A stretch of 64,000 nt of DNA, from the NCBI RefSeq assembly GCF_040183065.1, contig NC_091132.1, forward strand, positions 162,574,102-162,638,101, written 5' to 3'. Below, one piece after another: positions 4,695 through 61,060 of the stretch. Origin of the DNA: Periplaneta americana (Eukaryota; Arthropoda; Insecta; Blattodea; Blattidae). The translations under genes were made by a program, and so were the position numbers. The stretch's first letter is position 1; the number at the start of each line of letters is the position of its first letter. Below the pieces are notes generated by a model. The model had not been told where the DNA came from, searched no databases, and saw only the letters and a list, made by a program, of their open reading frames with translations.

Positions 4695-4966
4695 AATAAG
4701 TTCAGCCACCGGCATAGCTTTGTCGGCTAAGGCGCATGCCTACAGATCTGGAGTTGCGCTTGGGCGCGGGTTCGATTCCCGCTTGGGCTGATTACCTAGT
4801 AGGGTTTTTCTGAGCTTTTCCCCAACCATAAGGCAAATGTCAGGTAATCTATGGCGAATCCTCGGCCTCGTCTCGCCAAATATCTCACTATCACCAATCT
4901 CATAGACGCTAAATAATCTCATAGTTGATACAGCGTTGTTAAATAACCAAGTAAAAAAAATAAGTT
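4695..4966 (+). mobile_element. SINE family B with target duplication
   Basis: The tRNA-like head starts near 4703 (A box 'ggctaaggc', B box 'ggttcgattcccg' at 4769-4781). The body ends in 'gttgatacagcgttgttaaataacc' split over 4924-4949 and an A-rich tail. Direct repeats 'aataagtt' lie at 4695-4702 and 4959-4966. Confidence 0.88.
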
Positions 4967-7555: not shown

Positions 7556-8543
7556 GACATAAATAATACATCTCGATAACACAACTTTTAACGCTGTTTC
7601 ACTTCGGAATATTTTCTAGGCGTCACAATAACAAAAGTAGACAACAAACACACATTCAGAGTATACAGAACGCCAACAACAACAACAACACACACAACAC
7701 ATCCAATCACCCCACACAACACAAACAAGCTGCATTCCGAACAATGGTACACAGACTACTCAACGTACCAATGAACCAACAGGATTACAACGAAGAACTA
7801 AACACAATCAAATACATAGCATAAGAAAACGGATACAACCCTAACATAATAGACAACATAATACGTAAGACAAAACAAAACCACAAAAAACAGAAGAATA
7901 CAACACAAACACAAGAACACAAAAATACATCGCACTAACATACGAAAACAAAAACACACATAAAATTGCAACCTCATTCAAGAAATTAAACCACGACATC
8001 GCATACAGAACAAATAACACTCTACAAAAACATCTCAACACACAAACAACACAAACAAACAAATACAACCACACAGGCATATACAAACTCAAATGTAACA
8101 TCTGCAACAACTTCTACATAGGGCAGCCAGGCAGAACATTTCAAACACGTTACAAAGAACACATCACAGCCATAACAAAATTACAAAAACACCTCCACAT
8201 GTGCAGAACACATCACAAATGCCAACCACATCTACAGAGACATCAACACAGACATGGAAATACTGCATATCCAACCAAAAAGCCAGAAACTCAACACACT
8301 AGAACAATATGAAATATACAGACACACGAAAACACACCCCAACGATATTCTCAACACACAACTCAATTTCAAAACACATACTCTTTGACTCTACACTACG
8401 AACGCACCCACACAGGAAACGTGAGGCGCCAAGACCAGCAACGACCAGTTCCGAAGATGACCGAAAATAGGTCGAAATATGTTAACAATTTACGTTAAAA
8501 TTTAACACAAGAAGTTCTTTCATACATATTCCGACATAAATAA
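7556..8543 (+). mobile_element. Penelope-like element, 5'-truncated, with 11-bp target duplication
   Basis: Direct repeats 'gacataaataa' at 7556-7566 and 8533-8543 flank an A/C-rich insert. Its broken plus frames read the end of a Penelope reverse transcriptase (KQAAFRTMVHRLLNVPMNQQ at about 7727-7786) and then a GIY-YIG endonuclease: GIYKLKC, two cysteines, NNFYIGQ at about 8075-8130. RT followed by GIY-YIG defines Penelope-like elements. Several frameshifts and stops show it is dead. A terminal-repeat remnant at 8430-8532 matches that of the copy at 16.8-17.4 kb. Confidence 0.88.
8444..8490 (+). ncRNA. Decayed hammerhead-ribozyme-like motif in Penelope terminal repeat
   Basis: The order is stem I strand ACCAGTT, core CCGAAGA (C-C instead of the C-T expected), stem II GACC/GGTC, then GAAAT. 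The same region in the second Penelope copy keeps CTGACGA and GAAAC. Probably a mutated copy. Confidence 0.35.
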
Positions 8544-11833: not shown

Positions 11834-12060
11834 TTGTGTTATCTGGACATGTTTCAGGACTTTACCGTCCTATCCTCAGTAGCTATTGAGCCAGATCAGC
11901 TGTCGTTCTTGTTGACGTCTGGTGCCTATGTATATTTCTGGAGTCAGCCAGCGAGAAACACGTACCAGGAACCAATGACAGCAAATTATCGCAATATTAC
12001 AGAATTTAGGACTCGCTTTTCTGTGTGGTTGAGCGAAGGAATGACAGGTTTCAGTACGTA
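11834..12060. mobile_element. Penelope-like terminal repeat fragment, second family
   Basis: The layout 'acatgtttc-stem-tcctcag' (11849-11879) matches the terminal repeat of the Penelope-like copies in arrangement but not in sequence. An open frame over 11834-12061 has no recognisable domain and is probably spurious. It lies inside the P-element-like pseudogene. Confidence 0.45.
11841..11896 (-). ncRNA. Hammerhead-ribozyme-like motif
   Basis: Minus strand: core CTGAGGA (11879-11873), one unpaired T, stem II AGGAC/GTCCT with a six-base loop, then GAAAC (11855-11851), AT, and GTC as a candidate cleavage triplet (11848-11846). Stem I is weaker: CAGAT after the triplet can pair with ATCTG at 11896-11892 across an internal loop. 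No folding was run. Confidence 0.45.
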
Positions 12061-13030: not shown

Positions 13031-13445
13031 ATATGATGATGAATATACCATGTAATTTATTATGAGCTCTTCATTGTACAGTAGGTCACAGTGCAAAGGA
13101 TATTGTCCACTCTATTATATCCCCTTGGACAGGTTTTAAAAATAACATAGAATAACGTCAAGGTTTTAAAATAAAAAAAAATTGAAAATAGAGAATTAAT
13201 GAAGTTATTAAAGTATTCCGATAGCTGTATTTGTAAATGTTCAAAAGATAATTGACTTTATAAATTGGTAAACTTCTATATTTTAAATTCAACAAGAATG
13301 CATTTATAATAAATATATTAGTCATCATAATTAGCAATGAATTGAAAATGAGTGCATGTGATACAATGATGAAACTGTATTGAGGTTAATGTTTAGGTGA
13401 GGGGTTTGGACTTTTTCCATTGCTGTTGTCACAATCAAAAATTAA

Positions 13446-13490
13446 GACACAACGTTTCGAACGGTGGTTCTCCCTTCGTCTTCAGGTGGA
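13446..13490 (-). ncRNA. Hammerhead-ribozyme-like motif, third family
   Basis: Minus strand: stem I strand CAC, core CTGAAGA (13485-13479), a 20-base stem-loop region with GAA/TTC pairing, GAAAC (13458-13454), GTT, then GTG, which pairs exactly with the CAC before the core. It lies in an otherwise unrecognised repeat (about 13390-13600). Confidence 0.45.
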
Positions 13491-14700: not shown

Positions 14701-15640
14701 CGTGACTAAATGGAATAGCCCTTATGGCTTTTAAGGAACCAGAGGTTCATGGGTGCCCTACCCTAAGCAAGAGTTAGTTAATGGGGTTTAAAAAGGGCGC
14801 GACAGCTACTATGGCTATTTGCGCCCTTATCTAAAATCTTTCACTAAACACAAACACAATACAATAACCAGAATGCTTAAAAGAACTAAAAAGCGTTGTC
14901 ATGGTTAAAACGAGGCAAACAAATGCAGTTTCAACAAGGTGAAGCATAAAAACCATAAAAGTGAGAAGTTCTCAGACCCTGTGTAGTATTTAAAAAGAAA
15001 CAACAAAACAATAAAACAAATGCCACCAGAGATAAATTATCTAGCGCATTTATAAAATGCCCGAATGTAAAAGGTCCGAATGTCAAATTTGTTAAAATCG
15101 TACACTAAAAAATGTAACCTCCGGATGTAAAGAGTCTGGAGGATAGGTAAAACAGGTCATTAAAAACTACATCACCTTGTCAAGTCCTGTAAAGGTAAAG
15201 GTAAAGGTATCCCCGTAACATGCCATGAAGGCACTTGAGGGGGCATGGAGGTAGAGCCCCATGCTTTCCATGACCTCGGCACTAGAATGAGGTGGTGTGG
15301 TCGGCACCACGCTCTGATGTCCTGTATTCGATAAAAATCTCAGAACTGCACTTGTACAATTAAAATCATTTCCAAGAGCGTCACGTGGAGATGGCCGAAT
15401 TGCATACTGCCGACGGGCACGGTCGTATTTTCTACACTGTAATAAAAAATGTTCCACGGTCAGTGGAACATGGCATAGATCACACTCCGGCTGAAGCTCG
15501 CCACATAGGAGATGCCCATGCATCTGATGACAGTGGCCAATCCTCAATCGGGTGAGTAAAACTTCTTCATGTCGTGACGCTCTTGTGGACGAATCCCAAA
15601 AGCGAACAGTATTCTTTATTCTTCGTCCTAAGCAAGATTA
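14701..15640 (-). mobile_element. LINE 3' end, RNase H-class C-terminus
   Basis: The minus frame over 15547-15167, with an upstream continuation to about 15630, reads the C-terminal Cys/His segment of I/R1-type elements: RIGHCHQMHGHLLCGE, CDLCHVPLTVEHFLLQC, RKYDRARRQY. This is the zinc-knuckle-like region after RNase H. Below 15160 the sequence becomes non-coding and includes twin 'ccgaatgt' phrases (15060-15090); it is probably 3' UTR. A second tail-like block ('cccttatggcttttaaggaacc') lies at 14717-14740. Confidence 0.75.
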
Positions 15641-15795
15641 ATCCAATGTCAGTTGTCTCAGGTACGCCGAGAAGAGTTTTGCGACCTCAGATACCACTCC
15701 ACTGAAGATGTCTGCCGCAGTTGCAGACGAAACGTCTGGTAGAAAATCAACCAACAAACCACGGCCTCTCAGCCCGGAAAATGAATCTAGATGCT
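15640..15795 (+). repeat. Dispersed repeat carrying a hammerhead-like motif (copy 1 of 3)
   Basis: This shares the body 'tgtctgccgcagt...gacgaaac.tct' and the end 'ccacggcctctcagcccggaa' with copies at 21825-21905 (minus) and 24115-24240 (plus). It looks like a small mobile repeat or a Penelope-type terminal repeat. No protein. Confidence 0.7.
15692..15741 (+). ncRNA. Hammerhead-ribozyme-like motif, best example
   Basis: In order: stem I strand TACCACTCCA (15692-15701); core CTGAAGA (15702-15708); one T; stem II GTCTGC/GCAGAC, a perfect 6-bp pair with a seven-base loop (15710-15728); GAAAC (15729-15733); GTC (15734-15736); then TGGTA (15737-15741), which pairs with CCA next to the core or with TACCA further out. 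Core, stem II and the GUC triplet fit the hammerhead consensus with a very short stem III, except for the extra T after the core. Confidence 0.6.
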
Positions 15796-16309
15796 AGAAT
15801 TATTATATCAGTGAAAATAGAATGCTATGCACAAAATAAAAAAGTTTAAAGGAACTCAGTTATAATAGGCCTATATACATCATACAATATAGAGCTGTAG
15901 CAATATTGAAACTTGTGTTGTATTAATTACAAAACTGAAAATATTTAGGCCTATAAAGTGTGCAAGTGATCTCAGAAGACATGGATATTTAGAATTTGTG
16001 AATTTGGCTGCGTGAAAATCTCCCTCGTATGACTGGATTTCTGTGGCTCAAAGACTGTCTTGTGAATGTTTTTTTTTTTTCTTTTTAGCAGTGAACCTTA
16101 TCTTCTTATCTATGTTTTGATTGCTCGATATGTTTAACTTCTGTTGAATTGAACTGCTACTACATTTAGTTCATATATTATTTTGTCTAAGTAGGAAACA
16201 ATTTTGCTTCTGGATTTATCAGAGATTTCTGTCCTTTGACTTAATCCTATAATTAGTTCAAATTTTAATTTGATTTCAGTATGGACATTAGAAGGTTAGC
16301 AGCTTCTTC
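15796..16309. other. No gene seen
   Basis: AT-rich. No coding or structured repeat was recognised. Confidence 0.5.
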
Positions 16310-16736: not shown

Positions 16737-17440
16737 AACTTTTAACACTGTATCACTTCGGAACATGTATGATAAGACTTTCTTGTGTTAAATTCTAACG
16801 TACCTTGTTTACATGTTTCGACCTATTTATGGGTCATCGTCAGAACTGGTCGTTGTTGGTAAAAAAAAATTGCAACCTCAATCAAGAAATTAAATTACAA
16901 CATCGCATACAGAACAAATAACACTCTACAAAAACATCTAAACAAAGAAACAAACATATACAACCAACAGGCGTATACAAACTAAAATGTAACACCTGCA
17001 ACAATTTCTACATAGGACAGACAGGCAGATCATTTCAAACACGTTACAAAGAACACATCACAGCCATAACAAAATTACAAAACACTCCCATATATGCAGA
17101 ACACACCACAAATGTTAACCACACCCACAGAGACATCAACACAGAAATACTACACATCCAACCAAAAAGCCAGAAACTAAACACACTGGAACAATATGAT
17201 ATATACAGACACACGAAAACACACCCCAACGAAATTCTCAACACACAACTCAATTTCAAAACACACACTCTTTGAGTCTACACTATACCACACGAACGCA
17301 CCCTCACAGGAAACAGAACAAGAGGCGTCAAGACCAACAACGACCAGTTCTGGGTATGATCCATAAATAGGTCGAAACATGTAAACAAGTACGTTAGAAT
17401 TTAACGCAAGGTCTTATCATACATATTCCGAAATTAGTTA
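16737..17440 (+). mobile_element. Penelope-like element flanked by inverted terminal repeats
   Basis: From about 16960 to the stop at 17276 the plus frame is open and encodes a GIY-YIG endonuclease: GVYKLKC, C, NNFYIGQTGRSFQTRYKEH, then a long basic tail ending NFKTHTL. Upstream coding (16870-16960) is one frame off. The coding part lies between inverted copies of about 105 bp (16757-16860 and 17331-17434); complex terminal repeats in direct or inverted order are known in Penelope-like elements. Much shorter than a full element, so an internal deletion is likely. Confidence 0.85.
16802..16850 (-). ncRNA. Hammerhead-ribozyme-like motif in Penelope terminal repeat
   Basis: Minus strand: ACCAGTT, core CTGACGA, one T, stem II GACC/GGTC with an eight-base loop, GAAAC, AT, GTA, then AACAAGGT. 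Stem I pairs GTT with AAC and ACC with GGT around a small internal loop. The opposite terminal repeat (17343-17390, plus strand) has the same layout with a damaged core (CTGGGTA). Hammerheads in Penelope terminal repeats are established; this instance is inferred from sequence alone. Confidence 0.6.
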
Positions 17441-17636: not shown

Positions 17637-17886
17637 AGTAGGTTATATTACGACGCTTTATTAACATCTCAGGTTATTTAGCGTCTGAATGAGATGAAGG
17701 TGAAGGTGATAATGCTGATGAAATGAGTCCGGGGTCCAGCACCGAAAGTTACCCAGCATTTGCTCATATTGGGTTGAGGGAAAATCTCGGAAAAATCCTC
17801 AACCAGGTAACGTGCCCCGACCGCGAATTGAACCCGGGCCACCTGGTTTCGCGGCCAGACGCGCTAACCATTACTCCACAAGTGTG
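17637..17886 (-). mobile_element. SINE family A
   Basis: tRNA-like head at the right (B box 'gaattgaacccgg', reversed), tail 'acgacgctttattaacatc' at the left. No clear target duplication was found. It lies 75 bp past the stop of the zinc-finger gene. Confidence 0.82.
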
Positions 17887-17961
17887 CACTAAAGGAGAGA
17901 TTTGCATATAAATTTTCGAATTAATTCAGACGTAATTTACAAAGACAATTCGTATATTATA

Positions 17962-20900
17962 CTATCGCTGGCGTGCGTGCAGGTGTATATGTCTTTTTAG
18001 GATAAACTTAATCGCGAAACATTTTCCACACAAATCACATTTGAAAGGCCTTTCGCCTGTGTGTACCAATGCATGGTTCTTCAGATGTGCGGATTGAGAA
18101 TAACACTTTCCACAAACAACACATTTAAATGGTCTCTCGCTTGTATGAAGGCGTTTATGCGTTTTGAGTCCTCCAACAAACGAAAAACTTTTTCCACATA
18201 GATCACATATAAATGGTCTTTCTCCAGTGTGTAGACGGGAATGATCTCGTAGATATCGCGATTGTGAGAAACACTTTCCGCAGATATTACATTTGAATGG
18301 CTTTTCGCCTGTGTGTAGGCGTTCATGTGTTTTGAGAATTCCTGCATCCCAAAAATACTTGTCACATACATCACATTTATATTGTTTCTTGTCTGTGTGT
18401 AAACGTACATGTTGTCTTAAATTTCGCGATCCTGAGAAACACTTTCCACAGACATCGCATTTGAATGGCCTCTCGTTTGTGTGTATGCTTTCATGTTGTT
18501 TTAAATTTCGCGATGCTGAGAAACTATTTCCACAAACATTGCATTTGTATGGCCTCTCCCCTGTGTGTATGCGGGAGTGTTTTATTAGTTGTCCCGAGTT
18601 ACATAATGCCAATTTTTCTTCATCACCAATAATCTCGTCGCTTTCTGATGACTCACTCTTCTCAACATTATCCACAATCCTGAAATGAAAATTTATCAGT
18701 CTACACAATACTCTCTGTTGTGAAATCAGAATATATCAGCATGCATAAGGGTATAGAAATATGAATTCAATCAGATTTATCGCCAGATAATAATAGTATC
18801 TCCGTGATTAGACCCTCTGACCTGGGTTCGATCATAATCTGGGTCACAAAGCGAACACGAGGAGTTTTATTTGGGGTTTTTCCCGTCTCTCCTCTTCTTT
18901 GTCATCATTTCTCCAATATCCCACAATCACTCACTCTGCAAGGTCTCGAGCTAAGACTAAAGAACAAACAGAAAATGGCTGAAATCTGTACACATTTATG
19001 TTTAGTAAAAATTATTATAGTTGTATATTTTGAGGTTTCCCTCTCTGCGAAACATAATATGAATATAATTGTGTCCGCAGAAATATTCCGGGTTTATAAA
19101 CTGCTATAGCGTCACTGTCAGTTGCCGGATTTATACGAAACTGCTATCATTATTTACTTACTTACTTACTTATGGTTTTTAAGGAACCTGGAGGTTTATT
19201 GCCACCCTCACATAAGTCCGCCATTGGTCCCTATCCTGAGGAAGGTCAATCCAATCTCTACCATCATATCCCACCTTCCTCAAATCCATTTTAATATTAT
19301 CCTCCCATCTACGTCTCGGCCTCCCCAAAGATCTTCTTCGCTCCGGCCTCCCATATAACACTCAATATGCGTTTCTGGATTCGCCCATATGTGCTACATG
19401 CCCTGCCCATCTCGAAAGTCTGGATTTAATGTTCCTAATTATGTCAGGTGAAGAATACAATGCGTGCAGTTCTGTGTTGTGTAACTTTCTCCTATAACTT
19501 TATCCCTCTTAGCCCCAAATATTTTCCTAAGCACCTTATTCTCAAACATCCTTAAAATATGTTTCTTTTTCAGAGTGAGAGTCCAAGTTTGACAACCATA
19601 AAGAACCGGTAATACAGGGACATCATTTTATTTTTACTTCAATTTTTATTGTACCTGAGTTTTTGAATGTACTTCACTCCCACTCCCTCTACTAGTAAAC
19701 TTCCAACCGTTCTCCACACAGAACCAAGCGTATACAGTCAAAGTCGCCCTACGGTTATAGTAAACACAAACAGTACTGAGTTAGTGAGTATAGTACGTCC
19801 CACAAATATGTTCGCTTTCAATATTGAATCATATTCTCGCAAAGGTACTGTCGTCCGTTTGCCTACGTCGCATCTCAGTTTCCCCCACTCACTTCTGCCC
19901 GTCCCTTTGTGGCTGGGCTGTCTTAGCTCTTTTCTGAAAACAATTTCTGTTAGGAATTGGACGTCTACGTAATATTATACAACTGTTTAAAATAACTTAA
20001 ATAAAAAGGCCTCGTTAAGTAATTAACTGTCACGTGATTCTCCCCCTTTCTACGACCCTGCGACAAAACCACTTGGACGGACAGTAAATAGCTTGTCTGA
20101 GTAATTTTATCTTTTCGGATCGGGCAGAAGGGAAGATTGAATTTACAGTACGTAAGGTACTCTTTTATAGGGTAGGTGCAGAATTATTTCAACATGAGTT
20201 ACTATTACGAAAGACGAAACTGGTAATTGGGATTAGATGCAATAGTCTATAGTGTGATAATATGCACAAAAGAACTGAAACCTGTATAGAAATGAACGGC
20301 CATCATTTTGAAATATGTGTTTAAATATCCATATTACGATTATTTTTCAATTTAACTTCATTCTCTATATTGTATGCTAATGTGCTGTAGATAGTATAAT
20401 ATACACTGCATAATGAATACGTCCGAATGGGAAGCTCAGTTCGAGAGTAAAAACGCTTATTGTTAATACAGTACTGTATATTGATTAAACAAAAACCTAA
20501 TGAAAATTATCAAACTCAAAATCGCGATATTTCCTACTTTACGTAAATGGATGAACTAATTTTCATCCCTCCTATACCAAGTAAAGTGATTTGTTTGTAT
20601 CTTACACCAGTATCATCGAACTCCAGTCGTGGAAGGGGTTAGCAAACGGTGTTTCCGGTTCACAACTTTTAAGCCAAAGGTATAGGCAGGTTAATATTAG
20701 AAATGTTAGTAAAAATAAAATGATGTTCCCGTACAACTGTTTTATAAATTCTAACATTCAAATTTTTTGACAGCAGACTGGATGACAAAAGCTTCTCAAC
20801 CGAATAATAACAGGCATTTCCCATATTTATTTTGTGTTTAATTTCCTCCCGAGTATCATTTATATTTGTTGCTCCCAGGTATTTGAATTTTTCCACCTCT

Positions 20901-23900
20901 TCAAAAGGGTAAATTTCCAATTTTTGTATTTCCATTTCGTACAATATTCTGGTCACGAGACATAATCATAGACTTTGTCTTTTCGGGATTTACTTCAAAA
21001 CCTATCTCTTTACTTGTTTCAAGTAAAATTCCCGTATTTTCCCTAATCGTTTGTGGATTTTCTCTTAACATATTCACGTCATCTGCATAGACAAGCAGCT
21101 GATGTAACCCGTTCAATTCCAAACCCTGTCTGTTATCCTGAACTTTCCTAATGGCATACGCTGTAGCCAAGTTAAAAAGTAAAGGTGATAGTGCATCTCC
21201 TTGCTCTTTAGCCCACAGTGAATTGGAAATGCATCTGACAGATACTGATCTATACGGACTAAAGAGAAACTCAAACATTGTTTGTACCTACCACAAAGAC
21301 ATTCGATGTGTGCTCCACGTGTCAAGCTGCAGACATCAAGGCGATATTCCCACTCGTCATTAGTGTCAATAAATGTTCACAGAAAACACGTCTTTTGCAT
21401 GGTCATCAGGTTTCAACTTATGCACTAATTGCAGTTTGTAGGGGTGAAATCGCAGACGAAAACGTAGGACCTTGGAAACGGTGGATTTAGAAATGTTTAA
21501 CTGCAGGCTAGCTCTAAACACAGACTTTCGAGGACTATGTACAAATGCCTTCCGCACCTGTTCTACAGTTTCCACACAGACAGGCCGTTTCCCTACAAAA
21601 TCTAATATTCAGATCATTTAACGCAATTTGCTTATATCCAACAATGCCTTAATGACGAGGAAAACAGCGGAAACGGCGTTTTTTCTTTCTTCTTGTGCTG
21701 CCATCTCCTGTTTCGGTCAACAATGATCAATTACGCATTTCCTGAAATTCTTTGAGCTGTTCTTTCTAATGACATCGGTATGAATTTCGTAAAACACATA
21801 GTGACAGAATTATAGCAATTGATATGGAGCTTCCCGGCTAAGCCGTGGTCTACAGGTGTAAATATCCCCAGACGTTTCGCCTACTACTGCGGCAGATTAG
21901 TGTTGGCTACTGAGTGAATGTTTCGAAACAGTGAGTCGACACACTTAGATGTTCTGTGATTCGAAACACTTGGACTTGAATAATTCGATACAGTAACTGT
22001 TTCAGTTTCACCAAGGTTTGATGCTGTCTATCGACTGTATTCTGCAGTATCGAGCATCGAGTGTATGTAAGAGAAAAGAACGAATGAAAAAGTTAATGTT
22101 TCGAAACATTGGTTGAAAGCGAAAGCGCTTCAGGGCTGCATCCTGTCTCAAATAAACTGCTTCACGAACGGAAGTTTGCCAATATGCTTTCAAATCAAGC
22201 CGAGTAGCTATATCCGAAGAAATAATAATAATGATAATTATAATATTTGTTTATGAATTGAAATAACTTTAATAGCCTGAATACTACTTATTGCTTGAAT
22301 TTTCTATATATATCAACAATGTTATTAAATTTTATGTTATTTTTTCGACGGCCCCATGAAAGTCGATGTTAAATATGACAGAAATAACCAATATTGACTT
22401 TAGAAGATGCAATTTTAATATTATACATGCATGTTTGATAGTATTAATTTTTATTCTTTTTTTTTAGTTGGTTATTTAACGACGTTGTATCAACTACTAG
22501 GTTATTTAGCGTCGATGAAATTGGTGATAACAAGATGATATATGGCGAGATGAGGCCGAGGATTCGCCATAGATTACCTTGCATACACATTACGGTTGGG
22601 GAAAACTTCGGAAAAAACCCAACCAGGTAATCAGCCCAAGCAGGAATCGAATCCGCGCCCGAACGCAACTTCAGTCCGGCTGGCAGCACCTGAACCGACT
22701 GAGCCACACCGGTGGCTTTTTTTTTATTTATTTATTCTTTTTTTTAATAATTTAAAGTCCATTTGCCCATTGTTAATATAGTCTTTGTTTTTCTCCTGGT
22801 TGTGAAGGCTTAAACTTTGGTAAATATCGGTCAAAGCAAGTGGATTTGTATACTTATGACTCATGAGCAAATACATACCGTACATACATTAATTATAAAC
22901 TTATTTAGTGGTTAATAAACATCACATTTATTCTGTACTAGTAGATTAAACTCATAACTACGTTTGGAATCTGATAGCTACTTCAAAATGACGTGACAGT
23001 AGTAAGTACATTTTTAATGTAGACGTGATTACTAATACATGTTCCTACTTACGCTCGAAACATCAAGTACTGTACCGCAAGGTTCTCATGTGTCGTATCT
23101 TGTGTACAGAGTTTCGAATCAGGGCATCTGACAGCAAACGAATCTGCAACACAGTGCTAGTCGACACTTTACCTCCTAGTAGATGTGTCGTGATTCGACA
23201 CAGTGTTTCGAAACATTTCACTGAGTCGTTTCGAAACAGCTGGATGTGTCACTTCTCCCATGTCTACGGCAGACATCTTCCCCGGCTCTATAAATAAGGA
23301 CAGGCAAACAGTCAGGGTATCTGTTGCAGTGTTGCCAGGTCTCCGGAAATTTCCGGAAATCTTCGGAATTTTTTAACTTCCCGGAAAAATAGGAAATAAA
23401 GTTGTAATCTCCGGATTTTTTAATGTAGGAAATTATTTATTTATTTTTTTTTTAGAAAAACCAATCTCTGGCATACATTAAAACTGGTAGATGAACATTA
23501 TACAGTTAAAGTTTTGTTAATATTTTATAGCTTGACTACTAATGCTTCCCTAAATATAAAATATTTTTTTATTTATTTTATTGGGTTATTTTACGACGCT
23601 GTATCAACATCTAGGTTATTTAGCGTCTGAATGAAATGAAGGTGATAATGCCGGTGAAATGAGTCCGGGGTCCAGCACCGAAAGTTACCCAGCATTTGCT
23701 CGTATTGGGTTGAGGGAAAACCCCGGAAAAAACCTCAACCAGGTAACTTGTCCCGACCGGGATTCGAACCCGGGCCACCTGGTTTCGCAGCCAGACGCAC
23801 TGACCGTTACTCCACAGGTATGGACCAATATAAAATATGTAACGCGCATAAAAACGTACATATCTGGTCTGGAGAAATATCTATGAGAGGAAGGTAGTGA

Positions 23901-26900
23901 CTACTAATCAAATTGGTGAGTAGAAAAATTAAAGTAGAAATCTTTTTATTATAGATTCATGTATTGTAATTGTTAGAAGGTTATAGTAACATTTTATGTG
24001 ATTTTCGAAAGTGCCTTCGGAAAATGTTGACAAATCTCCGGATTTTTTTCATTATGACCTCCGGAAATATTTTTTCAAGATCTGACAACACTGATCTGTT
24101 GCTACATGTACCCCGAGCAGAAGACTTAGACCTAGGATACTCACCACTGAAAATGTCTGCCGCATTAGTAGACGAAACATCTGAGAATATCTACACCAGC
24201 AGGCCACGGCATCTTAGTCCGGAAGCTCATATCAATTAGACACCGGCCGTGAAAACCTATATGCTAAGAATTATAGCAGTTTATAACCCCGGAATGTTTC
24301 TGCAGACACACTGTATTTCCTATCTGTATTATCAGCCACATAATTATTCAAATCAAGATTTCAGGTATAACTCCCTGTAAAGTTGATTTGAATAATTTCG
24401 AGGGAAAAATTGTTCCGGAGCCGGGTATCGAACACGGGACCTTTGGTTTAACGTACGTACGTATTTTCCCTCGAAATTATTCACATAATTATTGTTCAGT
24501 AATCAACATCAGCATGCATTGTATACTAAGTCGGTTATATTATGCTTGACTGAAATCCAATAATTACTGAGTGACTAGATTATCAGAGAAGTGGCAGAAA
24601 GCAAAGGCTACATATACCATGGAGTGTATGATTGAAGCCATCTGGCAACACAAAATTGTGCTGTTCGTGGTTCTGCAAATGATAATATACACATTAGAGT
24701 GTTTGTTTACTAAAATACAGTTGAGCATGACTGCATCATCATCAAAAACACTAAAGATCTAATGTCGAAATAAATTAGGGTAACTACAAAAAAATTAAAT
24801 CAATTAATTATTTATTTTACTAATAATTGTAACATAAAACGTAATATAAACAGGAAAACTTTAGCTCGCTTCTGAATGAGTACAACTCGTGCTCAGGGGC
24901 GGATTTCTGAATTGAAATTAAGAAGTATATGATACAAATTGTCTTATATCTACTACTACGAAATAAGTATATATAAATTTAAATGTACAGTTTTTTAATT
25001 TTTATAAAATCCATACATAACTTTTTAAATTTATTACTAGAACCATTAGAATTGACGAGATTAGGATATTAAATATTGTAGCAGTGTTGCTTTTTAATTA
25101 AAAAAATCTTAAAAAATTCATACCTTTTGTTTCATAACTATGAGAATACAATTCAAAATTAAGTTATTTCAATTTTTATGTATGAATTTGTTTTATTTTA
25201 AGAACATTAAAGTCTAAAAACAATTTTTGAGATGGAAAATCAATAGGTTTATGAAGACATATTTTAATTATTTTCTTCTGTAATAAATAAAGTGGGATAC
25301 AATTGGATTTAAATAAGCTACCTATAATTCCATACATAATTATCGATTGAAATAAAGTTTAGTATGTTGTGCATAATAAACTTATTGACAAGTAATTCCT
25401 CAATAAAACAAAATAATATATTATTTTACGTAATTTATTACAAAGGTAATTAATGTGTTGGTTCCATTTTAAATGTTTGTCGAAAATTATGCCTAAATAC
25501 TTAACTTCAGAGGACTCCTTATTAATCGGACATTTACACTGTATATGCAACAATTAGAGAACACTTCAACACGCTTAAAAAATAAATACTTACACATTAA
25601 GTAGATCTACTTTGTAATTCTATACAGGCCTAGGCCTGTAACTAGTTTAAATACTTTCGGTCTTACTAATAAATCGTGTATAGTTTTTTATACGAGATTT
25701 ATGCAAAACGTTACTAATGAACCATGCATAAGCAGTGGATGTATAAATAGCCTGTAACTATACTCGTGAATTGCTTTGCAGTAGTTATATACACGAAACC
25801 CCTTGAGGTCGAGAAATAATTATCGAATGACAGCAAACATTCGTCAAGATCAATTAAAATTATGAGAAAAGTATTAGCACTCGCTGTATTATATAAGATT
25901 ATTCTCTCCTGCATTATCGATATTAAAACTTCTTGAGGATCGAAAAAGATAATGGGCTATATTTTGTCTTTCTTTCATAAAGTTATAAAAATTATTTAAG
26001 CGTTGTATATAGAGAAAAAATGGCTGCCCATCTAACAGCTGTTCGTACCAACCAATTGTCATTTTATGATGATGGATGCCTTGTGAAAACAGATCGCGGT
26101 AATCGATTGGTCGCAATTGTACTATCGATACTTAGTGCGGCACACTAGCACACTCTATCAGATGCAATAGAGAAACTCAAGATATTCTATTACGTTTCGT
26201 AGTGAGTGACGAAACTATGACATGACTGTGTAATAGCTGTACTGTTATACACGACGTATGTAGTGATAATTAGTAAGAAATTTACACATGACTTATAAAC
26301 GAGCTATTCATTGTGTAAGTATAAGATAAGTAAACGTCTGTATAAGAGTTTTTATTAGTAGAACCGTTTATGTTTTTTATTACCTGTAAAACGTTTTTTC
26401 TAGACTTTTTTCTGTTACTTAAATGTTGCAAATGTTTCAGTCTCTAATCTATGGACATAAAGGCGATATCGAGAAATGGGTTGCAGTGCTGTATTCCCTC
26501 TCGGCTTACTTCGAACACGATAGCATCAAATTGGAAATCCCGAACACAAACTGATTTTCGAGCTCTATCTGTAGTGCAAAGGACAAACCTCTGCCCCCAG
26601 GCATATGGACGGTAGAGGCCGGCAAATTTTCAAAAAATGATCATTTTGACCTTCCATACCAGACTTTTGTCTACACAAGGAGAATGAAGGGGCTCAGAGA
26701 CCAGCTCTTTTCACTGTAGCATCTCTGCATGGCGTTATAATAAAACTATAAACATTCACTAGTACTCAGGACAGTAATGTAAACAGTTTGTATAAAATTA
26801 TTTGTATTTGCATAAGAGTTTTCAAAGAGATTGTAACTGCATTCTATTCTCTATTTTTATTCAGATTTTGGCTCAGCCCCTTCCTTTCTTTATAATTCAA

Positions 26901-29565
26901 AACTCTGTTCTCCATTTTATAATAAAAGGAGCTATTTCAGATGTAGTTGGTAGCATTTCATAGTAAGAAAATGTGATAGGAAACATAACCTAAAAATGCA
27001 GTGAAGTATGAACAGGGAGATCAAAGTCTCTAGCAAAACTGCGGCTGCAAAATTATCGCAACCTGTATGTACATGTACATACCCGCAGAAACTTGTTGAA
27101 ACTTTCACAGTACTCGAAATGGATGGCACAGAAAGTGGCCAACTAGCACGACACACAGGGATTGCAGCTGCAGTAGAAATGTTGCCTATCAAAAGTAGTA
27201 ACATGTGAACATACGGTGAAAGAAATCATGGTTCTCAAAGGAGAGAAGAATAGTAAAGCAGCAGATATTGTAGAAGTTGTAGTATCTTCATTGCAATGGT
27301 AATGATAATTTTGATTAATTTTATGTAATTTCATTACTGAAATATATTGAGGCGAGAATAGGTATCTCAGCTTCACCAATATGTGTCCTGTGTAATGATC
27401 CAGCAGAAATGAATGAAGATCACTTGAAGACCTGTGAAGCATTAAGATCAGAAGAAACTACAGTTCAAAAGTAATGGAAAGCACGACTGCTAATGGCTTC
27501 ATTGCCAGATGCAAGGCACTAGACGACGACGACGACGACAACATCAACAACATATATTGAGGCGTCAATATCAATAACCACAAATATATTTAATACAAAC
27601 TGATATTATAAATTAAACAAATGCTGTCAAATAAAGCTGTAAAAGAAGGGAAGAAGTAAAACCAGCACACTACACTCACCTCTCAGTCAACATTTCATCC
27701 TCCTCTGAAGATACTTCCAATTTCTGTTCCTGCTGAACTCTGTCCCGATCGAACAAATCTTCCTGGAAAAGCCAATCAATATTGAAGAGAGCTTTAGTTG
27801 ACTATTTAGAATCACGTTTAAATCTTAAAAACATGTGCATGTGATGTATGAAGATTCTGCAAAATATCTAACCGAATTTGTTAGGATATTGAGTAAAAGT
27901 TTATACAATAATGCTTGTATCTGACGCTATCAACTGTATACAATGCAAGCTAATAACAATGAGAAAGAAAAGCTTCTGATGTGTGTTATCTGTGAATTTG
28001 AAGACAATGATCTCGTTTATAAGATATTTGTACTGAGTTTAATTTGTAGACTGTTATCTGTAATAATAATAATAATCCGTGGCGCTACAGCCCACGAAGG
28101 GCTAAGACCGACCAGCCGACTGCTGGCCTCACGGCCACATGCCGAAGCAGAGGTGGACGATCATCCAACCAGAATGGAGGTATCGTGTGGTTAGCACAAT
28201 GAGCCCCCCAGCCATTATAGGTGATTTGCGTAACCGGATTTCACTACCTATCATAGCTCCCCAAGTGCATCACGATGCTGGGTGGGCACCGGTCCAATAC
28301 ACTGGCCGAAATTGCATGAGAAAATGTCTTCCCCCACGAGGACTCGAACAAGTGCGCATTCCGTAACACGAGGTCCTAGGCAGGATGCCTTAGACCACGA
28401 CGCCATGGCGCGGGACAGACTGTTATCTATAGCATTCTAAAATGTTTAGCAAATACGAACAAATATGCTTAATTGAAATTCAGATTGCAAGAGGCAAGAA
28501 TGCTAGACAATGCCATACAGCATTACTGGAAGCTTGTGGTAGAGAGACTTCACTAGGTGGGTGCATGCATTTCGTTAACAGGAGGGAAGATGTTCATCAG
28601 AAACGTTGAGCTGGCAGACTGTAATCAGCAAGTGAATGCTGTAAGAGTGCTGCTGGAAGAACACCGTTGTTGGTTATGATTTTAAACGGAATCCTTCTCA
28701 CTCAGTCACTTCCTGTTGGAAATCGTGTGAATGGTGCATAGTACAGTTACTTTTTGGAACACGATTTACACCCAGCGGTGTGGCGTAAACATCCAAATCG
28801 TCTGAATTCTCATCCTATTGTGCTACATGATGGTGTTCACTCTCACATAGCTGCCCCTATGGTTAATTTACTTCGCAATCGGAACTGGGACGTTCTGGAG
28901 CATTCTCCATACTCTCCAGATATGAGTCCACGTGATTTAGACCTTTTCCCAAAAACGGAATTACCACTTAGAGGAGTTCGCTTTAGAACCAGACAGGGAA
29001 TTATAGCAGCAGTAGAGCAGTCTGTTCGAAGATCAGTACAACAAGATGCTGTGAATGGCATCCGTCGTCTCCCTGAGGTGTGGAGGCGGGTTCTTCATGT
29101 TGGAGGAGATTACTTCTGAGCACTGCAACAATGTGACTGTTCCAAAAATGATTTCTTTGTTGTTAATTCAAATGTTGCCAATAATTATTGAATGACCCAT
29201 GTATATTGAAACATTAATACAGTTTACTGTATATATTTCATTGCTGAAAGTTTCATTTCCTCCGAATTGCACACTTTCTAATACAACTTGTTCTTTTCAG
29301 ATAAGGTAGCATTTGCCACAACACATACAAACTGAACATATTCAATTTTATTATAAAATAATAACCGTAAGTAACACAAATTGTTCCAGCTGCTTGAGAT
29401 AATTCATAACTTGAAATGGATTGAAGTATGAAACTTGAAATTTTTCGCCATTATGAAAGCTTGTGAAAATATTTGAAGAGAGGGGTTCTGTGGCAGATAA
29501 GATCGTTATGGCAGGTCAAAGTCCTTAGTAAATGTTGTTGCTGATTTTATAGCTGTAAGTCCATG

Positions 29566-30860: not shown

Positions 30861-33372
30861 GAGCATGCGCAATTAATTTCTTGCTACAGTTAAATTTTTC
30901 TAAATGATCAAATACAACTTCAGATATTCTTTTGGCAGTGTCATCTGAAAGTCCTGTTAATTTTTGTATTTATTACAGCTTATTTTATTTATTTTTATTT
31001 AATTTTATTTTTTATTCATTTTATTTTTTATATTACATAATTTTAAATTATTTATTATTTCGTTTATACTATTCTTTTAAAATGACCAATGAACTGCAAT
31101 TAAGGAGGCTACAAAGGTACTTGAAAATTCGTACTGTAGTCTCTGACAGAGTTTCCACACCACCACATAGAAAGAGGGGTCGTAGTATTAGGATATACGG
31201 TCATATCCTCAAACGCGGTTTACGTCAAGCCATACCCCTCCCTCCGCACTCACCCCTGTCCATAACTTCACTGCTAGAAAAAACCGTTTGCTGTAAGATA
31301 TTTGGATAGTTCCTTGGAAAGTATTCCTAAGGTCTGAGATGTGCAGTGGCGACAACTCACGACAGAAAGTGGCAGTTTGAAGAAAATTATTACATCGGGA
31401 TCATTAAAAATAAAATCTGTAATGAAAATGTTTTCTATTTTCAGAGGCACGAAATTAAACTGTAGGATCATCCTCATATCCTTCATGAAGGCATCGCCAC
31501 TGTATATAATATATAGTGAGGCAGGACATACTTTATTGTGTCAAGTCTGTTCTTTATATTCATTAGTTTTCTTATTTTAATGCGTTAAATCTATCGTTCC
31601 GTAAAAATCTCCATTTCAAAGGGCATAAACTGGAACAACTAACGATACATATTCAAACATAAGTTCATATTACAGCTGAGAATACGATTTTCATAACTAT
31701 GCTTGCACCACATTTTATATTAATATTTACCAGGGGCATAAGTAGATATATCGATATTTGTTATTTTCCATGGAAAACTGTGAAATAAAAATATCAACTG
31801 ATTCCTCTTTGTCTGAAGAAATAATACTCATTTCAATTTTGATTACTATAAAGAGTACTTCTGTAAAAACATAATTTCATTAAATAATATTAGCTACACC
31901 CAAGTTCCGAGTTGGGTGATGGTGCGCGAAGTTTTTGCTTCTGTATGCGTGACGTAAGCAAAAATTACCTGGACTGCTAGCAGAATAGCAGAGTAGTTTG
32001 TCTATGTGGGCACCTTCACCCGACTCGGGACTTGGGTGTAGCTAATATAATTGAAGGGTTCAGAACCATAGTGGGCCAAGCGCCATTTACTAAAACCATG
32101 GAAAACAAGGGTTAAAATGAAGTTATCACCATAATTCAATGGAAACATATAGCAAGTAATATAAAGTATATACATTCACACTAAATGATATGTCAATCTT
32201 CATTAAACTATGGTATTCACTTAACTTTAACCCTTGATTTCTCCGTTTTTAATAAATAGCACTTGGCCCACTATGTCTCTGAACCCTTCAATTTAAAGAA
32301 ATTATTTTTTTTTACAGGAGTGCTTCATTATGCTAAATCGAAACTAAAATTGATACAATATCTTCAGAGAAAAAGGAATCAGTTGATATTTTTATTTAAA
32401 TTTTTTCCGTGCAAAAGTTAATCAAACATCGATATATCTACTTATGCCTCTGTTAAATATTAGTATAAAATATGGTGCATGCACAGTTATGCAAATCGTA
32501 ATCTCAACTATGAACTTTGGCTGGAATGTCCATTCTAAGTCCTTCCACATTTATGCCCTTTGAAATTGGCGATCATTTACGGAATTAAGTCGCCCTTGGT
32601 AGTGTAGTTGGTATAGCGCTGGCCATCTATGCTCGAGTTTGCGGGTTCGATCATGGCCGAGGTCGATGCCATTTAAGTGTGTTTAAATGCGATAGGTTCA
32701 TGTCAGTAGATTTACTGGCATGTAAAAGAACTACTGTGGGACAAAATTCTGGTACACCGGTGACGCTGATGTAACCTCTGCAGTTGCGAGCGTCGTTAAA
32801 TAAACCAAAATTTAATTTTTTCGGAATTACGAAAAAATTTAAAGTATTATAACAAGAAAACTAATGGACTTCAACGAGAACAGACTTCGCATCATAAATG
32901 AAGGGCTCAGATCCATAGCGGGCCAAGCACCATTTATGAAAATTGGAGAAAGCAAGGGTTAAAGTTAAGTGAATACCATAGTTTAATGAAGATTGACATA
33001 TCATTTAGTTTTAATGTGTATACTTTAAATTACTTGCTATATGTTTCCATTGAATTATGGTAATAACTTCATTTCAACCATTGTTTTCTACGGTTTTAGT
33101 AAATGGCGCTTGGCCCACTATGGTTCTGAACCCTTCAAATTATCTCCTACATGTAGTTTGGTTTTTCGAAGAATTACATAATTATATGATTTTTTGCTGT
33201 TCGATGTCACATGGAATGTTCCATATATGAGTTTGAACACATATTATCTCAATTGCTACGATGGTAATTCTTACACCAGTAACAACAAAATAAAAATTAT
33301 GTAAAGTTAAAGTGAAACCTTATTTCTAGGCAAAACTTTCTCCATGTATTAGAGATAATTTTTTCTTAACTT

Positions 33373-59501: not shown

Positions 59502-60610
59502 TTGAATGGCGTCAGGTCAGAATGCGTAAGTGCGTGCACTGTGTTACCACAAGTCTTTACAAAGATTACACACAATCATCGCACTTATATGGCTTCTCGA
59601 CAGAATGCGGACGTGCTTGTCCCTTCCGAGGTTCAGAGTATATAAAACATTTTCCACAAGTATCACATTTCAATGATTTCTCGCGAGAATGTGTGTATGC
59701 ATGCCTTTTGAGATGTATAGACTGTACAAAATCTCGCCCACATACGTCGCATTTAAATGGTCTTTCACCAGAATGCGTACGTGCATGAACTGTGAGATCA
59801 CTAGACTTTACAAAACATTTTCCACAAACATCGCAACTGAATGGCTGCGCTTCTCCCAAATGCTTACGAACATGGCCTGTAAGATAAGACGAATCTGAAT
59901 AACCTTTCCCACAAATATGACATTTGTATTGCTTTTCGCCGGAATGTGAACGGACATGCACTGTGAGACGACTACACTGTACAAAACATTTCCCACAAAT
60001 ATCACATATGAACGGTTTCTCGCCAGAATGAATACGTTTATGGATTGTCAGATAACTTGAATCTGCAAAACTTTTCCCACAAACTTTGCATTCGTAGGGC
60101 TTTTCCCCAGAATGCATTCGTGCATGTACTCTGCGATGACTTGAATGAAGAAACCCTTTCCCACAAACATTGCATTTGAAAGGCTTCTCCCCAGAGTGAG
60201 TACGTGTATGCACGATGAGCTCGCTAGACCTTGCGAAACATTTCCCACAATCATTGCATTTGAATGCCTTCTCTCCGGTGTGCGTAGGTAAATGGGCTTT
60301 AAGGTGTTCTAAACGTAGAAAATATTTCCCACAAGTATCGCACTGATATCTCCTCTCGGCGGTGTGAGTTCGCAAATGCTTTTTCCTACTTTCGAGACTC
60401 CGTAACAACTTGCCACAAATATTACACTTAAAGGAACCTTCGTCTGTATAACAGTCTAATTGTGATTCCAACTTTTTCTTCTTTTTAAACCCGTGATCGG
60501 ATAGCTGGAGTTCAGCAGTACTTTCTCTCACAACACTTTGTGGGTAGAGACAATTTTCAGTTCTTCCGCATTTCACCAAGAGCGCTTCATTCTCTTCAAT
60601 GTCAGAGATG
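59498..60610 (-). CDS. C2H2 zinc-finger exon of a second gene, last finger frameshifted
   Basis: The exon probably starts at 60610, after a GATTACAG acceptor in phase 2: the residues that follow (ISDIEENE) parallel IVDNVEKSE at the same place in the 18-kb gene. An ATG at 60630 and the longer open frame to 60744 are less likely. Counting from the exon start there are nine intact C2H2 fingers with H-S-G-E-K-P linkers, a tenth with its first His changed to Gln (KGQARPH), and an eleventh that stops after CDDC at 59566. The rest of finger 11 (TCGNTVHALTHS) is readable in another frame down to about 59515, so a small deletion has truncated the protein. Predicted nuclear DNA binder. Upstream leader exons were not found. 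Confidence 0.82.
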
Positions 60611-60744
60611 CTGTAATCAAAAGATTTCATTCGTAATAGCAAATAGCTTACTACTACAATAGTGGAAAGTGACGATAAAAATTGGCGACATATTCCACAA
60701 CTGTCACCTAGCGGTTCGATAAGATAACTAACAGCAGCGTCCAT

Positions 60745-61060
60745 AGCAGTTGATATGTTTTGGTAAAAACGGTATTTTTCTTTTCTTATTTCTTATGTCC
60801 TGTAATTTAAGGAAATGGCTCAAGAGGTGTTATTTGTGCCATATGTGACTGTTTTAATTACCAGATTCAAATGAACGGAAATAATTGTCAGGTTTTCCAA
60901 AAACAAGGGATTGTAAGGACCATATAATGAGGTTATGATTGATTTGAATATTGTAGCTAATGATGAGAGGAATAGATGAACTCTCTCATCCATTAAAGCT
61001 ATTGTTGACATTCAACATAACATGGCCTATGTAAGTTGCACTGGATTTTTAGTACATTAT
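60745..61060. other. No gene seen
   Basis: Upstream of the second finger exon; no acidic leader exon was recognised up to the window edge. Confidence 0.4.

Follow-up and report, generated by a model that had tools for sequence, protein, structure and literature searches.

A 64,000-nucleotide stretch of the Periplaneta americana genome (NC_091132.1, positions 162,574,102 to 162,638,101; hereafter the window, C16:162574102-162638101 in our contig set) carries at 15692-15741 on the + strand what is very probably a small type I hammerhead ribozyme of a Penelope-like retrotransposon (PLE), left there as a solitary 144-bp fragment. Sequence comparison places the motif at the junction between two open reading frames (ORFs) of a PLE present in more than 1000 copies, and not in the small local repeat family that the initial annotation had assumed. 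Our analyses demonstrate the sequence of the motif, its copy number, the frames that flank it, the covariation of its stem II and the paired arrangement of its copies.

Anatomy and covariation of the motif

The elements of the motif follow one another in the type I order, CUGANGA...GAAA with stem II between them and an NUH site with A15.1-U16.1. The core CTGAAGA (15702-15708, C3-U4-G5-A6-N7-G8-A9) is followed by one extra T (U in the RNA; 15709) between A9 and G10.1, and then by stem II, whose strands GTCTGC (15710-15715) and GCAGAC (15723-15728) form Watson-Crick pairs at all six positions around loop II, CGCAGTT (15716-15722). Downstream lie GAAA (15729-15732), the palindrome ACGT (15732-15735), which is all there is of stem III, and C17 (15736). 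The cleavage triplet is GUC, with a predicted cut at 15736/15737. Stem I comprises three pairs flush with the core (CCA, 15699-15701, with TGG, 15737-15739); a longer option pairs TACCA (15692-15696) with TGGTA and leaves CTCCA bulged. The hammerhead order, perfect 6-bp stem II, GUC site and weak stem III described in the initial annotation are thus present as claimed.

A descriptor requiring the core, 0-1 extra base, a stem II of at least 4 bp, GAAAC N0-4 GUH and a stem I of at least 3 bp matched the 64-kb window at 15702(+) and 16843(-) only, and first-order Markov sequence once in 564 Mb simulated (0.00011 per 64 kb). When stem I was not required the window gave three matches, each with one extra base, a T, confirming that this base is shared with the motifs at 11.8 and 16.8 kb.

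Covariation of stem II was assessed in 66 distinct stem-loops taken from two genome-wide sets (3760 and 9369 matches, see below), using the first 100 places listed for each and leaving out one long insert of the former; pair 1 was fixed by the search pattern. Pair 2 was formed in 65 of the 66 (A-U, G-U, U-A, G-C or U-G), pair 3 in 57 and pair 4 in 56, compared with shuffle means of 42.1, 45.5 and 36.9 and shuffle maxima of 51, 56 and 45, respectively. The observed counts are inflated by the relatedness of the sequences. One core is common to six unlike stems (GTCTGC/GCAGAC, GACC/GGTC, GGCC/GGCC, GGAGG/CCTCC, GGGGG/CCCCC and GAGGA/TCCTC). The covariation that the initial annotation wished to see in copies keeping the core therefore exists across families, where it supports a type I hammerhead, while in the exact family most of the variation in stem II is at a single pair: the fifth pair in 95 places is G-C in 52, G-U in 37, A-U in 5 and G-G in 1.

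Copies in the genome and extent of the fragment

The host genome (3.23 Gb, 91 contigs) was searched with a 161-bp query. Scoring covered 40 of the 1138 first-look candidates and listed 53 matches. Thirty-six of these 53 span exactly query positions 10-153 (window 15649-15792) at 95-98% identity, and the motif-class pattern CACTGAAGATGN{10,30}CGAAACGTC has 1286 exact matches in the genome (647 and 639), with none for the reversed control. The suggestion of a three-copy repeat holds for the window but falls far short of this number. Chance resemblance to a hammerhead would fit with the lack of an Rfam match reported below, but the single match in 564 Mb simulated, the 1286 genome copies against a control of 0 and the covariation together make it hardly credible.

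The whole PLE fragment occupies 15649-15792 (+), 144 bp from TCAGTT, a putative initiator, to the tail ...GAATCTAGAT, as judged from the ends of 30 loci. These 30 include the window, and in 26 of them the 37-nt string CCACTGAAGATG...ACGT is unchanged. The 5' end falls 0-2 nt ahead of TCAGTT in eight copies, 5 nt in one, 9-12 nt in ten (four of which stem from one duplicated segment), 22 nt in two and more than 50 nt in nine. The 3' ends lie 0-8 nt past ...CTAGAT in 15 copies, 16 nt in one, 34-40 nt in ten, 57 nt in two and 120 nt in two, one of the latter being the reference sequence; these were determined by ungapped extension, so that the values for L382 (6) and L383 (16), both of which continue past a one-base gap, are too short. 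Longer copies carry the TATA box of the element, TATAAATA, about 30 nt upstream of TCAGTT. Because the window copy begins at TCAGTT it lacks this box, and it is probably inert. It has no partner nearby.

Elsewhere the copies tend to be paired. The exact family on contig C1 (95 places) has 29 neighbours no more than 10 kb apart; of these, 26 stand head to head (-/+) with their tails outward and three belong to one tandem array. Among the listed places at 2 kb or less, -/+ exceeds +/- by 23 to 1 in the 3760-match set (four same-strand) and by 19 to 1 in the 9369-match set (11 same-strand), and the same-strand neighbours in both are mostly arrays.

Two arrays are of interest in their own right. 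At C1:18458142-18462574, on the - strand, a minimal extra-T hammerhead forms a tandem array of 11 listed units, mostly 343 bp apart, which is retrozyme- or satellite-like; at L413:1489-1713, four 56-bp tandem copies of a hammerhead of this class lie between ATT repeats and are a candidate natural cis-dimer. Tandem hammerhead arrays of this kind would be expected if the motif belonged to a non-autonomous hammerhead retrozyme moving via a small circular RNA. We consider this very improbable for the motif at 15.7 kb, however, since a retrozyme is a tandem non-coding repeat whereas the window copy is solitary and derives from a coding element, its family having reverse transcriptase (RT) and endonuclease frames.

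Reading frames at the junction

The fragment begins with the final 18 codons of the PLE endonuclease frame and its UGA stop (SVVSGTPRRVLRPQIPLH*; 15649-15705, +) and continues with the opening codons of the next PLE ORF (MSAAVADETSGRKSTNKPRPLSPENESR; 15708-15792, +), cut off at the end of the insertion. The stop at 15703-15705 lies within the core, and the extra T is the middle base of the AUG at 15708-15710, which precedes the predicted cut by 26 nt. Both codons are retained in the window copy. In 12 loci fetched out of the 152 matches of an endonuclease search, the endonuclease frame has this same end, terminating at the UGA inside the core CUGA in all 12, and in six the next frame is opened by the AUG that core A9 forms with the extra U and G10.1.

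The ORF of L365 contains a GIY-YIG domain (25.4 bits against a cut-off of 22.6), although the domain was not found in the 119-aa end piece from L362 alone. At a tandem locus, L429, the motif occurs at 2194 and 4809 (+) and at 420 (-), giving a unit of 2615 bp, and the frame between the two + motifs runs from ATG at 2200 to TGA at 4810-4812, that is 2613 nt or 871 codons with the stop, leaving two bases outside the frame. A 350-aa piece of this frame matches RVT_1 (E 7.9e-16), and its end is about 90% identical to the L365 endonuclease in the endonuclease search. From its sequence the element is of the Penelope-like kind: RT and GIY-YIG share one frame, copies occur in tandem and inverted, and a tail extends beyond the point where the ORF begins. 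PMC11167929 gives the combination of RT with GIY-YIG, the tandem arrangement and such a tail as features of PLEs. By sequence, too, the motif combines the diminished stem III and the PLE association of small PLE hammerheads. Searches for relatives of the PLE endonuclease gave no confirmed case among 179 stretches in viral contigs or 62 in the genome-contig collection, and a 30-base repeat pattern had no match in the latter.

The extra base after the core

Genome-wide counts were made with a pattern in which the base in question precedes N8-34 and CGAAACGTC. An extra T was found 3760 times (control 2), an extra C 117 times (control 1), an extra A 42 times (control 6) and no extra base 21 times (control 8), and some of the places with A, with C or without an insert resemble point changes of extra-T families. 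The importance that the initial annotation had attached to the extra T is thus borne out at the level of the family. A second class, ending CGAAACATGT (the ACATGT class), has 9369 exact extra-T matches against a control of 0 and keeps the core, the extra T and the site, which brings the extra-T core to more than 13,000 exact matches in the genome. We rejected the idea that the extra base is always T, given the extra-C set of 117 matches (control 1). Also rejected was the idea that a start codon explains the extra T in general, because the frame of the common ACATGT variant stops after four codons and the motif at 11.8 kb has no ATG.

In viral contigs, a pattern with a GGC stem found an extra T at 120 loci or more, no insert likewise at 120 or more, and an extra A and an extra C at four each. 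Stems I and III are complete in 68 of 98 distinct extra-U viral sequences, compared with 13 after one random deal of the downstream flanks, and in 72 of 109 sequences of the no-insert set, compared with 5 after one such deal. Several stem I and III pairs of the viral set vary on both sides. A complement to loop II stands behind stem I in about 22 of 25 printed cases (by eye), and a pseudoknot between loop II and the 3' flank is likely in the extra-U hammerheads. Complete phage-type hammerheads with an extra U after A9 are abundant in these contigs, examples being L191:4893-4930(+), L145:1985-2022(-) and L057:6157-6194(-). The L057 stretch matches, at 83-87%, two records of Faecalibacterium phage FP_Brigit and one of a Flavonifractor phage, and the L191 stretch matched no phage record. 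Since complete extra-U hammerheads exist (68 of 98 in the viral set), we do not take zero spacing between A9 and stem II as a defining feature.

As both the genome and the viral sets carry it, an extra base between A9 and stem II is, by sequence, a recurrent natural variant. Rfam at gathering found no hammerhead at 11 extra-T viral loci, seven of which (L057, L067, L073, L092, L108, L114 and L119) belong to the complete-stem sets, and none at E<=10 at three complete extra-U viral loci, while three of five no-insert viral controls had a match at E<=1, all under gathering. A covariance model, R1, built from 44 extra-U viral 5' halves with stem II fixed to GGC by the search pattern, is not decisive: its best match, at 28125 (10.7 bits, E 0.27), is to an unrelated place, the window motif comes second of six with 9.3 bits (E 0.61), and the motifs at 16.8 and 11.8 kb are missing from its list. 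Because Rfam is silent on the window motif and on 14 extra-U viral loci, such ribozymes may be under-annotated.

Evidence against a PLE hammerhead and the coding alternative

Several results weigh against a functional hammerhead at this PLE junction. The covariance-model search suggested in the initial annotation came back empty: Rfam 15 gave no match at gathering in the whole window, and at E<=10 a hammerhead was absent from the 18 listed window matches and from 15550-15850. Free folding of 15690-15748 yields no hammerhead, CAGACG/CGTCTG competing with stem II, and the best dimer computed is another duplex (-27.0), ahead of the double hammerhead (-18.1). In none of six motifs was the flush stem I significantly stronger than with shuffled flanks (lowest fraction 0.124; 0.128 at 15.7 kb). 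At the junction itself, six of the 12 fetched loci read ACG in place of AUG; they form one group at 98-100% identity, the near-identical endonuclease copies L417-L422, in which the extra base is therefore C. For the 282-aa endonuclease piece following the RVT_1 piece of L429, Pfam gave nothing at E<=0.01. In the second tandem locus, L436 (spacing 2763), the frame opens at AUG but stops about 115 nt short of the next motif, so that a clean unit is demonstrated in one of the two tandem loci. The AUG of the window's own ACATGT motif quickly reaches a stop (ATG ACC CAT AAA TAG), and start-codon use is therefore not general.

The literature adds to these points. PAc, the hammerhead of Poseidon in Anolis carolinensis, can be mutated with insertion in vitro unchanged; unprocessed RNA is considered there to be the main substrate, and the RNA-seq data contain no reads ending at the cut site (PMC11167929). 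These results speak against a needed role of cleavage in making the template. In addition, an extra core base in a viroid hammerhead weakens cleavage, according to the statement in PMC11014351.

Some of this would be expected if the sequence were conserved solely as the end of an endonuclease and the start of the next frame (the DETSG codons), spread recently, with a hammerhead shape no longer or never used. There is coding sequence on either side of the motif, the competing hairpin folds better than the hammerhead, and insertion by PAc is independent of its ribozyme in the assays described (PMC11167929). Moreover, 36 of the 53 listed copies match the entire window copy at 95-98% identity, and little divergence has therefore tested the structure within the 15.7 kb family. 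Coding constraint of this sort does not account for the covariation of stem II between families, however, nor for the 9369 exact copies of the ACATGT class, which keep the core, the extra T and the site even in ATGACCCATAAATAG, whose AUG has no long frame. PAc RNA is also cleaved at the corresponding place, in dependence on C3 and G8, in the experiments reported (PMC11167929). We therefore regard a purely coding explanation as unlikely and prefer to read the motif as a PLE hammerhead.

Other motifs and repeats in the window

Of the two copies in the window that had been described as decayed, the one at 24147-24181 (+) has a single core change, G8 to A (CTGAAAA), together with GAAACATC, and keeps stem II with one G-U pair; the other, at 21817-21896 (-), reads as a 5' truncation within stem II and not as decay, because homology begins only at TCTGCC. 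Another PLE family contributes the hammerhead CTGACGA-T-GACC..GGTC-GAAACATGTA at 16804-16860 (-), which stands head to head with a second arm whose core is mutated (17333-17389, +); a PLE endonuclease-like frame between both arms (16922-17275, +) scores 17.8 bits for GIY-YIG, under the 22.6 cut-off. A motif of the same PLE family at 8451-8483 (+), with a mutated core (CCGAAGA), lies behind a second endonuclease-like frame (7869-8312), for which no Pfam match was found and a PDB search gave only intron endonuclease 1 (E 0.14). Two further hammerhead-like motifs are on the - strand, one at 11840-11879 with an extra T and A-U as its first stem II pair (AGGAC/GTCCT), the other at 13443-13485 with an extra C, CTGAAGACGAAGGG...TTCGAAACGTT. 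The genome extra-C list contains GAAGGG...CCCTTC, which resembles this motif, 13485(-).

The window also contains a repeat pair, 17701-17892 and 23637-23828 (90% identical), which is probably a short interspersed element; its second copy overlaps a tRNA-like Rfam match under gathering (23749-23821, -). Long near-perfect inverted repeats at 158-249 and 31898-32037 score as microRNA precursors under gathering and are probably pieces of foldback transposons. Open frames at 17962-18735 (-; 257 codons) and 59566-60792 (-; 408 codons) contain C2H2 zinc-finger arrays, named by eye.

Relation to known hammerheads

Small PLE hammerheads have already been published. Small PLE variants reportedly cleave as dimers (Lunse, Weinberg and Breaker, in 2017), and these are like the cockroach motif in being type I, in having nearly no stem III, in the dimer model and in their association with PLEs. 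The extra base described in a viroid hammerhead core by De la Pena and Flores in 2001 is reportedly an A between A9 and G10.1. The viroid hammerhead is similar in having one inserted core base; in the cockroach the base is mostly U and is a trait of the whole family.

Minimal PLE hammerheads without helix III and the usual tertiary contacts were described by Cervera and De la Pena (2014), as summarized in PMC6155905, and the 15.7 kb motif resembles them in both respects. Perreault et al. (2011) call weak stems III very common and draw a dimer for an Aedes aegypti hammerhead (legend of Fig S8). The core insertions given in section 8 of that work are located after A6 and in GAAA; viroid variants are mentioned without detail, and the text of the section has no insertion between A9 and stem II (PMC3088659). 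Double hammerheads need a palindromic stem III and tandem motifs, as set out in PMC6466107.

PAc is a close parallel in the account given in PMC11167929. Its ORF begins at stem II, the cut falls 26 bp past the start codon, as in the cockroach, and the element is likewise a GIY-YIG PLE in tandem. The ribozyme is protein-assisted, its RNA being cleaved only with protein; both DNA strands are cleaved and extended, and reverse transcription starts at two adjacent internal sites. PAc differs in having a pseudo-LTR (long terminal repeat) between its ORFs, while the cockroach element has an upstream stop in the core and, in one tandem unit, two bases outside the frame. The passages on Penelope(-like) hammerheads with start or stop codons in PMC11167929 and PMC10085705 do not describe a stop-start overlap. 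The cockroach motif is a sequence of the PLE hammerhead kind in which the overlap of codons is unusual and the extra base is shared throughout the family.

Proposed mechanism and significance

In the element the upstream RT-endonuclease frame ends at UGA in CUGA and the next frame opens two bases later at AUG. We envisage that transcripts begin near TCAGTT. Because stem III is the palindrome ACGU, a lone RNA would hardly build an active site, which might instead be formed by two copies, in tandem on one RNA or on two RNAs, or with bound PLE protein; published relatives make a need for a dimer plausible. Once assembled, the site would cut after GUC, 26 nt behind AUG, leaving unit-length RNA whose frame has no start codon, and uncut RNA would remain translatable. 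The short copies would arise if reverse transcription began no more than ~85-120 nt into the frame that lies close to the 5' end of the RNA, and then ran off that end. Target-primed synthesis starting on both sides of a break would be consistent with the head-to-head pairs with tails outward.

More tentatively, and as a proposal that we hold to be possible though doubtful, the ribozyme core would serve as the stop of one frame and the start of the next (CUGAAGAUG), with two bases of each tandem unit left out of the frame. Cleavage and translation through the junction would then be mutually exclusive, and the core would therefore act as a hinge; if this is true, tandem RNA would be sorted by the core into translatable mRNA and start-less unit-length RNA.

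The extra base also gains a context: it is part of a start codon in the PLE family of the 15.7 kb motif, yet it is kept in other families in which it opens no long frame, suggesting the reuse of a structural trait. In the family of the 15.7 kb motif the stop codon, the start codon and the putative catalytic core share nine bases, so that the question of whether PLE ribozymes compete with translation can be put to the test.
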